Origin: a virus
Direction: 5' to 3' (one strand)
Virus record (IMG/VR): IMGVR_UViG_3300030108_005325
Location: 1-63,054 of that record
Length of the DNA stretch: 63,054 nucleotides
Each line of letters begins with the position of its first letter. Position 1 is the first letter of the stretch. Both the position numbers and the translations under genes were made by a program. Of this stretch, positions 5,571-60,536 are shown one piece after another. The notes beneath the pieces are model-generated. The model was not told the DNA's origin and ran no database searches. It saw only the letters and a program-made list of their open reading frames with translations.

Positions 5571-5756
5571 AATATAAAAGTGTTTTTTATATCGTTTTGT
5601 AATCTGTATAGAATCTGTAAGTATTCTGAGGTCAATCAAGTCTGATTAAGTGTCTTATAAATGTGTGTGAGACTTGTGAGTTTAGCGAGCGTAGCATAAG
5701 GATCGACTCTTGTCAAGTACAGAGACGCAGAAATGTTACGAGATTGTCACATGAAA

Positions 5757-5980
5757 CTCGACGAGAACATATATACTACTGCGACTTTATAAAAATCTCG
5801 ACGAGATATGTGAGCAAATATACACATAAGCATTGACATCTCGTGCGATCTCGACTATAATTATCATATACAACATACATCTCGACAAGAATCATGTACG
5901 ACGATTTCGAAAATCTCGACTATACATGTGAGGATAATTCATTCAATTATGATGACGAGTTTTATGAAGAACTCGACGAG
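5757..5980 (+). repeat. Cluster of CTCGAC / CTCGACGAG palindromic motifs
   Basis: CTCGACGAG occurs at 5757-5765, 5797-5805 (within the palindrome ATCTCGACGAGAT) and 5972-5980. ATCTCGAC occurs at 5848, 5879 and 5913, with a partial ATCTCG at 5838. Six sites in 224 bp flank and overlap the -35/-10 region at 5833-5861. CTCG-A-CGAG is an odd-length palindrome, as many dimeric repressor sites are. The motif recurs once at 10244. Confidence 0.6.
5833..5861 (+). promoter_or_regulatory. Perfect-consensus sigma70 promoter inside the palindrome cluster
   Basis: TTGACA (5833-5838), a 17-nt spacer and TATAAT (5856-5861). The spacer itself contains ATCTCGAC ending at the -10, and another copy lies just downstream at 5879. 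That is the geometry of a repressible promoter. It drives the 48-aa ORF at 5894. Confidence 0.8.
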
Positions 5981-6040
5981 AATTATTCGCGAGCAGCGCA
6001 TACAGACTATCAAGAACTTGCATATAAGCATTATGCATGA
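5894..6040 (+). CDS. Very acidic hypothetical protein (48 aa)
   Basis: ATG 33 nt after a perfect -10. About one third of residues are Asp/Glu, with many Tyr, including D-D-E-F-Y-E-E-L-D-E-N-Y. Extreme acidity with aromatic residues is typical of small DNA-mimic or host-protein-binding phage products, but that is inference. Two of the CTCGAC motifs lie inside the gene and encode Leu-Asp. Confidence 0.6.
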   Translation: MYDDFENLDYTCEDNSFNYDDEFYEELDENYSRAAHTDYQELAYKHYA

Positions 6041-6326
6041 TAATTGGTATGTGACTCGCACAAGATTTATGGGTAATAGATAGGCACATTATATGTGTGA
6101 TAGATTCTTGTCTTTATTTTTAGCATGATATGACACCAGAAGTCAAGAGGTTGTGTGTCAGTGGTTTAATTGTCACAGCGCGACTTGACAGGCATTGTTA
6201 CAGAAGATTACAGATATTATTTTCAGGCAGGGGGAGTGGCGAAGTTTGTTCAGTAGTGCTACCCCGCACCCTTTATTTTTCGTTACACTCATTATAATTC
6301 ATATTTTGATGAGAATCAATATGAAT

Positions 6327-6388
6327 TGTGCCACTAATTTAAGTGTCACATAGATGGTTGCGCGGCAGCTGGATTGTGATATTATAAA
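6327..6388 (+). promoter_or_regulatory. Hairpin-promoter cassette 3
   Basis: TGTGCCACT (6327-6335) and AGTGTCACA (6342-6350) form a nine-base stem with one mismatch. CATAGATGG and TTGCGC (6358-6363) follow, then TATTAT (6380-6385, spacer 16) or TATAAA (6383-6388, spacer 19). It matches the cassette at 6483-6542 closely and would transcribe the candidate RNA at 6391. Confidence 0.55.
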
Positions 6389-6390
6389 AG

Positions 6391-6483
6391 TGTGGAAGGG
6401 GTGGTTTCCTTTCACGGTCATAAGGATATATTTGTTTTTCTCACACAAACTATAGAGCGGATTGGGAACCCGCTCTTTTTTTT
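6391..6483 (+). ncRNA. Candidate phage small RNA (about 90 nt)
   Basis: Bounded by a TTGCGC/TATTAT promoter just upstream and a strong intrinsic terminator. Between them lie a stem GTGGAAGG/CCTTTCAC (6392-6399 and 6408-6415, one G-U pair, 8-nt loop) and a single-stranded AU-rich middle. GTGTG near the 5' end could pair with CACAC at 6441-6447. There is no ORF longer than a few codons. The exact 5' end is a guess, and a longer transcript from the TATAAT at 6293 is possible. Confidence 0.5.
6454..6483 (+). terminator. Rho-independent terminator
   Basis: AGAGCGG (6454-6460), loop ATTGGGAAC, CCGCTCT (6470-6476) running into eight T residues. The stem is perfect and GC-rich in an AT-rich genome, making it one of the clearest terminators in the window. 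Confidence 0.85.
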
Positions 6484-6542
6484 GTGCCAATTTGATTAGT
6501 GGCACATAGGTAGTTGCGCAACACAGCGGGAGCGAGTATATT
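6483..6542 (+). promoter_or_regulatory. Hairpin-promoter cassette 4
   Basis: TGTGCCA(n10)TGGCACA (6483-6506), then CATAGGTAG, TTGCGC (6514-6519), a 17-nt spacer and TATATT (6537-6542). The hairpin, the CATAG linker and TTGCGC are shared with cassette 3, so the two are duplicates flanking the candidate RNA. The gene at 6567 follows 25 nt after the -10. Confidence 0.65.
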
Positions 6543-6566
6543 AGGAATGTACAGAAAAGAAACCCT

Positions 6567-6869
6567 ATGACCGCAACGAAATTTGTAAAAGAACTTTATA
6601 ACGAAGCATTGGTTTACTCATCCGTAGTTTTTGGAATGGGATTCTGGATAGACGATCAAGGTTTATTCATCTCAGCACCAGAGTTCAAAGACGGTTCCCT
6701 TGACATTGACAATGCGGTTCCCGTGTATGATTGGGAAAACTTTGACGAACTTTCCGCTCATCATCTCTCACACTTAATGCACGTTAACCAAATGTGCATA
6801 CTGAAAAGAGATTCACAGCAAATTGAGTACTATTCAGAAGTTTTTACGGAGTCTATTCAAAATGTCTAA
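6567..6869 (+). CDS. Hypothetical protein (100 aa)
   Basis: First gene behind cassette 4. The N-terminus is helical (F-V-K-E-L-Y-N-E-A-L-V-Y), then a Gly/Trp/Phe-rich patch (F-G-M-G-F-W-I-D-D), then acidic sequence and a His-rich A-H-H-L-S-H-L-M-H segment. The close histidines could bind a metal, but I see no named domain. The last codons overlap the next start. Confidence 0.7.
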   Translation: MTATKFVKELYNEALVYSSVVFGMGFWIDDQGLFISAPEFKDGSLDIDNAVPVYDWENFDELSAHHLSHLMHVNQMCILKRDSQQIEYYSEVFTESIQNV

Positions 6870-50092: not shown

Positions 50093-51229
50093 ATGGAAAA
50101 CGTAGTAACCAAAGGAGCAAAACCTGCAGAGCCTATGCCAAAACTGACTACAGGTGGTACACCACCAACAGTTGAAGACTTAGGTGGACCAACTCCTGAA
50201 AATTATAAAGTAGATGATGATTCTGCAAAACTCAAAGATCCTTCAATGATTTTGAAGCAAGTTAAGGATATTGTCAACAAAGGGGCAAAACCTGCTGAAC
50301 CTATGCCAAAAGGAATGAAGGAAGAAGAGGTAGAAGTAGAAGGTGATGTAGTTGCTGAAGAAGAGCAAACTACTGAGGACCAGGCAGATGTTGTATCCGA
50401 AGAGGAGACTACAGAATCCGAAGAGCAAGAAATTGTTGCCGAGGAAGAATCTTCTGAAGAGGAAGAGGTTGTAGCCGAAGAGCAAATCGAAGATTCAATT
50501 GATGTAGAAGAAGATCTTACTGCATTACTTGAGGGCGAGGAGTTATCTGAGGAGTTTCAAAATAAGGCACGTACTATTTTTGAAGCAGCAATAAAAACAA
50601 AGATTTCAGAAGTCAAATCTGAACTACAAGAGCAATACGAAAAAACTATTGTAGAAGAAGTTGCTTCTGTTAAGGCAGAACTTGCCGAGCGTGTAGATGC
50701 ATATCTTGAGTATGTGTCTGACGAATGGATGTCTGAGAACAAACTTGCTGTTGAAGCAGGTCTTAAGACAGAAATGACAGACTCATTCTTAACAGGAATG
50801 AAGAGTCTATTTGAAGATCATTATGTAACAATCCCTGAAGACAAATACGATGTACTTAATAGCATGGTAGAAAAACTTGATGAAATGGAAGGAAAACTCA
50901 ACGAGCAGATTAATAAAAACGTTGCTCTTAATAAGAGATTAGCAGAATCAACTTCTGATGTCATCTTAGCAGATGTATCTGAGGGTCTTGCTGTAACACA
51001 GAAAGACAAACTTGCAACTCTCGCCGAAAATGTTGAGTTTGATGGTGAAGACAACTATCGTGAGAAGCTAGTTACACTGAGAAATTCTTATTTCCCATCT
51101 AATCCTGGCACTCCAACAGAAAAATCAGAAAACTTATCCGAAGGTGCGGAAACAGGTCATCAGCAACCAGCAGTCACTGGTTCGATGGAATCCTACCTCA
51201 ACGCGATAAGAAGATCTGTTAAAAAGTGA
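50093..51229 (+). CDS. gp22: Prohead scaffold protein gp22
   Basis: 378 residues (T4 269). The N-terminal ~140 residues are extremely acidic with two copies of K-G-A-K-P-A-E-P-M-P-K (7-17 and 63-73). The rest is the helical scaffold core (A-Y-L-E-Y-V-S-D-E-W-M, then L-F-E-D-H-Y-V-T-I-P). Several L-x-E sites would be cut by gp21. The duplicated acidic N-terminus is the main difference from T4. Position between 21 and 23 as in T4. Confidence 0.9.
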   Translation: MENVVTKGAKPAEPMPKLTTGGTPPTVEDLGGPTPENYKVDDDSAKLKDPSMILKQVKDIVNKGAKPAEPMPKGMKEEEVEVEGDVVAEEEQTTEDQADVVSEEETTESEEQEIVAEEESSEEEEVVAEEQIEDSIDVEEDLTALLEGEELSEEFQNKARTIFEAAIKTKISEVKSELQEQYEKTIVEEVASVKAELAERVDAYLEYVSDEWMSENKLAVEAGLKTEMTDSFLTGMKSLFEDHYVTIPEDKYDVLNSMVEKLDEMEGKLNEQINKNVALNKRLAESTSDVILADVSEGLAVTQKDKLATLAENVEFDGEDNYREKLVTLRNSYFPSNPGTPTEKSENLSEGAETGHQQPAVTGSMESYLNAIRRSVKK

Positions 51230-52725: not shown

Positions 52726-52755
52726 AAAGGGACTCATTGCGAGTCCCTTTTTTTT
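52726..52755 (+). terminator. Rho-independent terminator after gene 23
   Basis: AAAGGGACTC (52726-52735), loop ATTGC, GAGTCCCTTT (52741-52750) and five more T. Ten-base perfect stem, the best terminator in the late region. The -35 of the next promoter lies in its loop and 3' arm. Confidence 0.92.
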
Positions 52756-60333: not shown

Positions 60334-60536
60334 CAATACCAAACTGGCAACATCACTCCAAGAAGGAGAAAAAACGAAAACTTAAACCACAAGCTCTACG
60401 TTCTGCAAGAGAAAGACGTAGACAGTTGATAAAGTGTCTACTTAACCCTGCCAACGGTAGGGTTTCTTTGTATAATGAGTATATCAGACAGAGATCCAAT
60501 GACAATCAAACACGAAATCAAATCACAACTTGCTAA
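60330..60536 (+). CDS. Small very basic protein (68 aa)
   Basis: Start in an ATGA overlap after AAGGAGG. The first 35 residues are rich in Lys/Arg (K-K-E-K-K-R-K-L-K-P-Q-A-L-R, E-R-R-R-Q) after I-P-N-W-Q-H-H. This N-terminal type occurs in cyanophages as I recall. The C-terminal third is read through the hairpin and promoter of the following cassette and overlaps the next gene, so the natural end may be variable. Nucleic-acid binding is plausible. Confidence 0.6.
   Translation: MTIPNWQHHSKKEKKRKLKPQALRSARERRRQLIKCLLNPANGRVSLYNEYIRQRSNDNQTRNQITTC
60444..60498 (+). promoter_or_regulatory. Hairpin-promoter cassette 9
   Basis: AACCCTGCC(aac)GGTAGGGTT (60444-60464, nine pairs with one G-U), then TATAAT (60471-60476), GAGTATATCAGACAGAG and an ATG 28 nt after the -10. 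The same design as in the 1-8.8 kb accessory region, but 50 kb away and in front of a large enzyme-like gene. -35 candidate CTGCCA at 17 nt. Confidence 0.6.

Follow-up and report, generated by a model that had tools for sequence, protein, structure and literature searches.

Genomic context of the locus

What is encoded in the stretch of about 90 nt that lies between two similar cassettes at positions 6327–6542 of a viral DNA, and why do the two cassettes resemble each other? A sequence-only reading had proposed a phage small RNA between duplicated promoters in a T4-like marine phage. The window, i.e., the whole stretch of DNA analysed (63,054 nt), makes up most of a virus record of 63,981 bases (IMGVR_UViG_3300030108_005325). 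PHROG matches in the window include the major head protein, the tail sheath and the baseplate wedge, and its DNA is similar to that of P-SSM2 and other Kyanoviridae; on both grounds, the virus is a T4-like cyanophage, and the proposed assignment was correct. The locus is situated in a region of small genes to the left of the structural genes and contains the following features, where O1 and O2 are predicted operators and P1 and P2 are predicted promoters:

6155–6176, no strand: another dyad resembling an operator, beyond the leftward RNA as seen from O1
6227–6288, minus: conserved leftward RNA (predicted), a 5′ hairpin with a 6-nt loop (RRNGUM), then UUCGNCACUCNCCCUGC
6291–6296, minus: −10 box of the leftward promoter (TATAAT), 31 bp from O1
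6328–6349, no strand: operator O1, GTGCCACTAATTTAAGTGTCAC, predicted to serve divergent promoters
6358–6363, plus: −35-like TTGCGC of P1, at the position of the weak −35 of the class
6380–6385, plus: −10 box TATTAT of P1, 30 bp from O1
6392–6483, plus: predicted non-coding RNA of about 92 nt, its start inferred from the −10 box
6392–6415, plus: 5′ hairpin of the P1 RNA, 10 bp, z about −3.8
6454–6483, plus: intrinsic terminator with T8, AGAGCGG-N9-CCGCTCT, a 7-bp GC-rich hairpin
6484–6505, no strand: operator O2, GTGCCAATTTGATTAGTGGCAC
6514–6519, plus: −35-like TTGCGC of P2
6537–6542, plus: −10 box TATATT of P2, 31 bp from O2
6567–6869, plus: 100-aa gene (phrog_13427, function unassigned), P2 being its predicted promoter

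A search for tRNA and tmRNA genes found none. Further left, largely non-coding DNA at 5705–5990 carries a repeated CTCGACnAGA-like motif, part of which is common to positions 2822–2877 of Synechococcus phage S-T4.

The TTGCGC/TATTAT promoter claimed for the locus is present as P1, with a spacer of 16 bp between the two boxes. The −10 boxes of P1 and P2 are imperfect, and the pattern of TTGCGC plus a −10 box has a chance expectation of 0.18 per window. The cassettes were said to share a hairpin, the CATAG linker and TTGCGC. The block GTGNCACATAGNTNGTTGCGC does occur exactly twice in the window (at 6343 and 6499; chance expectation 0.02); the shared “hairpin” is better read as an operator than as an RNA hairpin.

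The 22-bp dyad as a probable operator

BLAST searches found the cassette dyad in other cyanophages, and across cyanomyoviruses it follows the 22-bp consensus GTGMCAST-N6-ASTGKCAC. Pattern searches yielded 4–12 copies per genome versus 0–2 for a reversed-pattern control, and a gap of exactly 10 between the half-sites stands out in seven genomes. P-SSM2 contains seven dyads of this form; S-SSM7 contains 11 copies within 10 kb, most of them immediately 5′ of a run of small genes. When viral contigs were scanned with 20–50 bp permitted between the dyad and TATAAT, the two lay 29, 30 or 31 bp apart in 10, 66 and 27, respectively, of the 122 matches listed, and any other distance accounted for 0–5 matches each; the selection of these matches should not bias the distance. 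A small peak at 41 bp (five cases among the matches listed) lies one helical turn further.

The composition of the dyad argues against a structure formed in RNA. Among 79 non-redundant sites from the matches listed, mirror positions 4/19 pair as chance predicts (41 seen, 41.1 expected) and mirror positions 7/16 pair below chance (23 versus 39.4, Fisher p = 2.6e-4). Since the mirror positions do not covary, and a hairpin would show the opposite, the dyad appears to be a DNA site and not a hairpin or terminator; it also has no T-run, and its length is a constant 22 bp. The dyad is thus best read, with a high degree of confidence, as a DNA operator that defines a promoter class. Its centre lies about 53 bp ahead of the inferred start, and its ligand would most simply be a dimeric protein. 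Positions 7/16 show a preference for G..G or C..C (56 of the 79 sites among the matches listed), and the half-sites tend to differ, ACTG versus AGTG.

The −35 element is weak across the class, and TTGCGC occupies its place in the window. Many −10 boxes of the class are followed by a conserved start region, AAGTACATAACAAACAAAG; it is absent from P1, which fits a non-coding transcript. Under relaxed criteria, including relaxed left halves and 23–24-bp variants, the window contains eight rightward and one leftward class promoters between 406 and 8832, plus one at 60418. An operator promoter of the class (60418–60476) precedes a gene for a 730-aa peptidase-family protein at the opposite end of the window, outside the small-gene region.

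Cellular genomes were scanned with one genome per species (84,980 bacterial and archaeal species), requiring the strict dyad and an exact TATAAT. Five stretches with the class were found, in two assemblies. Two of them lie on NZ_RMVE01000006.1, a 188-kb P-TIM40-like contig filed as Nonlabens xiamenensis, which is 97.8% identical to P-TIM40 over the 4 kb compared; three belong to contigs of the TMED113 MAG (Flavobacteriales), cyanophage-like in the contig tested. The matches in both assemblies are probably contamination by cyanophage. The strict operator form was not found in any Prochlorococcus or Synechococcus genome of this species scan. The promoter class appears to be restricted to phages, the cellular matches being, where tested, cyanophage DNA.

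These results bear on the strongest of the competing explanations, according to which the operator is the site of a repressor or a host regulator and its spacing reflects silencing or host control. Many −10 boxes are perfect TATAAT and might work unaided, which leaves room for this explanation; yet a weak −35 with an upstream centre near −53 suits activation, and the Prochlorococcus and Synechococcus genomes scanned carry no strict copies, so we regard it as unlikely. An activator acting at the dyad is the preferred reading.

The predicted leftward RNA

On the minus strand, O1 faces a promoter of the same class. The distance between the leftward TATAAT and the dyad is 29–31 bp in 21 distinct loci and 40–41 bp in six. 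The predicted RNA downstream was found in 39 viral stretches by a pattern scan, and 49 copies were collected, including those of P-SSM2 (66490–66552) and S-SSM7 (50931–50990). A model of this RNA, R1, scores 66 bits on the window (E 1.3e-15) and also finds the copies of P-SSM2 and S-SSM7 and, more weakly, P-HM1.

Thirty-four distinct leftward sequences form the stem when anchored on the loop, a count that taken alone is biased, because the position of the loop had been selected for the best pairing. The covariation analysis of 21 sequences aligned with MAFFT indicates that the hairpin is maintained: the score is 0.843 versus 0.055–0.215 for slid alignments, it was reached in 0 of 500 shuffles, and all six pairs show changes on both sides. 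RNAalifold returned the same stem unprompted. G-U cells number 17 in the minus-strand stem, and those of the mirror kind number 0, which points to the minus strand as the RNA. Some copies enter a T-rich stretch just after CCCUGC, possibly the end of the RNA. Rfam searches gave no family at gathering score in the window or in the leftward copies of P-SSM2 and S-SSM7; the matches to mmgR, L20 leader and STnc50 obtained by a permissive search of 6100–6600 were below gathering and were rejected as terminator look-alikes.

The P1 segment

Rightward from O1, the P1 unit has the anatomy of a small-RNA gene: a promoter, a short unit free of ORFs and an intrinsic terminator. The strong internal stem and the GC-rich terminator noted from the sequence are both real; the window holds only two strict terminators, and 60 dinucleotide shuffles produced none. 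A strong strict terminator also lies at 52726–52750, immediately 3′ of the major head protein gene. The statement that about 90 nt are free of ORFs withstands comparison as well, as the two variants known for the segment have no conserved ORF in common. Two small ORFs were considered and rejected: that at 6354–6455 starts before the inferred P1 transcript, and that at 6392–6499 passes through the terminator and is lost in the diverged locus L004.

The segment is present in only three records (the window, that of loci L002/L003 and that of L004/L012), in two variants; the known carriers are contigs, such as IMGVR_UViG_3300020436_000374, and not isolates. A search for further homologues by sequence pattern recovered the same two variants only, and a search of viral contigs for terminator-plus-dyad cassettes returned mostly chance matches and no further copy of the P1 RNA. 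The first 37 nt of the variants are 92% identical, the middle has diverged with indels, and the 29 nt of the terminator are identical in L004. The 5′ stem has 10 bp in the window and 9 bp in L004, where one-sided changes keep the pairing, again judged on two variants only; with so few variants, the conservation of the RNA ends could be short-term. The proposal of a small RNA is upheld by this anatomy (promoter, 5′ hairpin, terminator) as far as a predicted short terminated transcript goes. A discrete RNA from P1 seems somewhat more probable than its absence, and a regulatory function for it is rather doubtful.

The segment might instead be a leader whose terminator acts conditionally and allows some read-through into the 100-aa gene, and not a stable small RNA. 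The terminator does directly precede the promoter of the gene, and in the minimum free energy fold of the window segment its 3′ arm is paired to the RNA's 5′ end and not to the other terminator arm. However, the gene has a class promoter of its own, a strong terminator, unchanged in L004, closes the segment, and seven related loci keep the gene and its promoter without the segment, so a leader is improbable. A separate, terminated P1 RNA remains the preferred interpretation.

Presence and absence of the P1 segment

The 100-aa gene has nine related loci. The segment comprising P1, RNA and terminator is almost unchanged in L003 (on the same contig as L002), and L004 has a diverged version of it; seven loci (L005–L011) possess the gene and lack the segment. 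In L005–L010 the dyad stands directly 5′ of the promoter and gene, L011 being the exception. Because seven related loci are without it, the segment must have arisen by insertion or been lost by deletion, and comparison of the loci supports the insertion of a cassette that now separates the leftward RNA from the gene.

The suggestion of a cassette duplication around the RNA therefore holds in part: an RNA-bearing cassette appears to have been inserted, and the likeness of the flanking cassettes needs no special duplication, because the promoter–operator class recurs many times in many cyanophages, in their regions of small genes. Moreover, in the nearest relatives, L003 and L004, the downstream dyad takes a 23-bp form that lacks CATAG, and hence the close likeness of the two cassettes in the window does not simply preserve a duplication that dates from the insertion. 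The outer repeat GTGCCACTAA...TTAGTGGCAC (fold z −4.9) was also considered as a retron- or MITE-like element; this was dropped, since the arms of the repeat belong to two separate operators that are seen singly elsewhere.

Proposed mechanism

Taken together, the observations make the following overall scheme likely. A putative dimeric regulator, probably encoded by the phage, would bind the 22-bp dyad centred some 53 bp 5′ of the start and recruit the host RNA polymerase to a TATAAT-type −10 box with a weak −35. O1 would fire both ways, leftward into the conserved structured RNA and rightward, from P1, into the RNA of about 92 nt. The P1 transcript would stop at the T8 terminator, isolating P2, and O2 would let transcription start anew at P2 and run into the 100-aa gene. 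The P1 unit would have entered by insertion, with the leftward RNA on one side and the gene on the other, for which the repeated promoter cassettes of other T4-like phages, as exchange points, offer an analogy; the P1 RNA may act in trans or be passenger cargo.

Comparison with known systems

The nearest known kind is the PeSL (promoter early stem-loop) cassette of T4-like phages (Arbiol 2010 and Comeau 2014), compared here through its description in PMC4503421, which also discusses PeSLs in S-PM2 and found them sparse there. As far as that description goes, PeSLs resemble the window cassettes in being short promoter repeats in plastic small-gene regions that gain and lose cargo. Here too, sigma-70-like promoters with a TATAAT-type −10 in a fixed place lie between small genes, in many copies (as in the 10 kb of S-SSM7) and with indels (the insert is present in three cases and absent in seven). 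In contrast to the PeSLs so described, the window dyad is best read as an operator of fixed length at a fixed distance from the −10, has neither a T-run nor a pairing constraint and so does not look, by sequence, like a terminator stem-loop, and the cargo includes a predicted non-coding RNA. A separate terminator precedes the dyad at O2 only. That the cassettes are simply PeSLs as in coliphages, with the dyad serving as a terminator hairpin before an early promoter, is very improbable: the layout is the same, with a repeated promoter and dyad between small genes linked to insertions, and PeSLs are described in T4-like phages in the source above, but the dyad lacks mirror covariation, avoids pairing at 7/16 and keeps its spacing to TATAAT, and at O2 a separate true terminator precedes it.

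An operator-driven promoter, the reading favoured here, also resembles the T4 middle promoters, in which a phage-specific upstream element replaces a good −35 at a fixed spacing from a sigma-70 −10. In T4 this element is the MotA box near −30, whereas the cyanophage element, a 22-bp dyad, has its centre near −53. The Syn9 transcriptome (Doron, 2016) reportedly may bear on early and middle transcription in cyanomyoviruses. According to a 2010 review, cyanomyoviruses lack homologues of motA, asi, alt and mod, their early and middle transcription mechanism was unresolved, and a putative middle promoter occurs in some phages, not including P-SSM2 (PMC2984593).

Non-coding RNAs have precedents in these viruses. 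CfrI of the T4-like cyanophage S-PM2 is an RNA of about 225 nt, antisense to psbA and a homing endonuclease gene (PMC2984593); the RNAs predicted in the window are intergenic, shorter and located elsewhere. The structured RNAs wcaG, manA, glnA and abiF are known from cyanophages as Rfam families (PMC9964418), unlike the window RNAs, which match none at gathering score.

Implications for cyanophage biology

It may be, though we put this forward tentatively, that a phage-encoded dimeric activator at the dyad near −53 constitutes an early/middle switch replacing MotA, with a new conserved regulatory RNA in the opposite direction and the P1 RNA as a second, recently acquired operator-driven RNA. 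The operator and its spacing rule make MotA-less early/middle control in T4-like cyanophages testable, the operator itself being a bait for the regulator, and sites of the class are available in the cultured phages P-SSM2, P-HM1, S-SSM7, P-RSM4 and P-TIM40. The predicted leftward RNA would add a new family to the structured RNAs of these abundant marine viruses.
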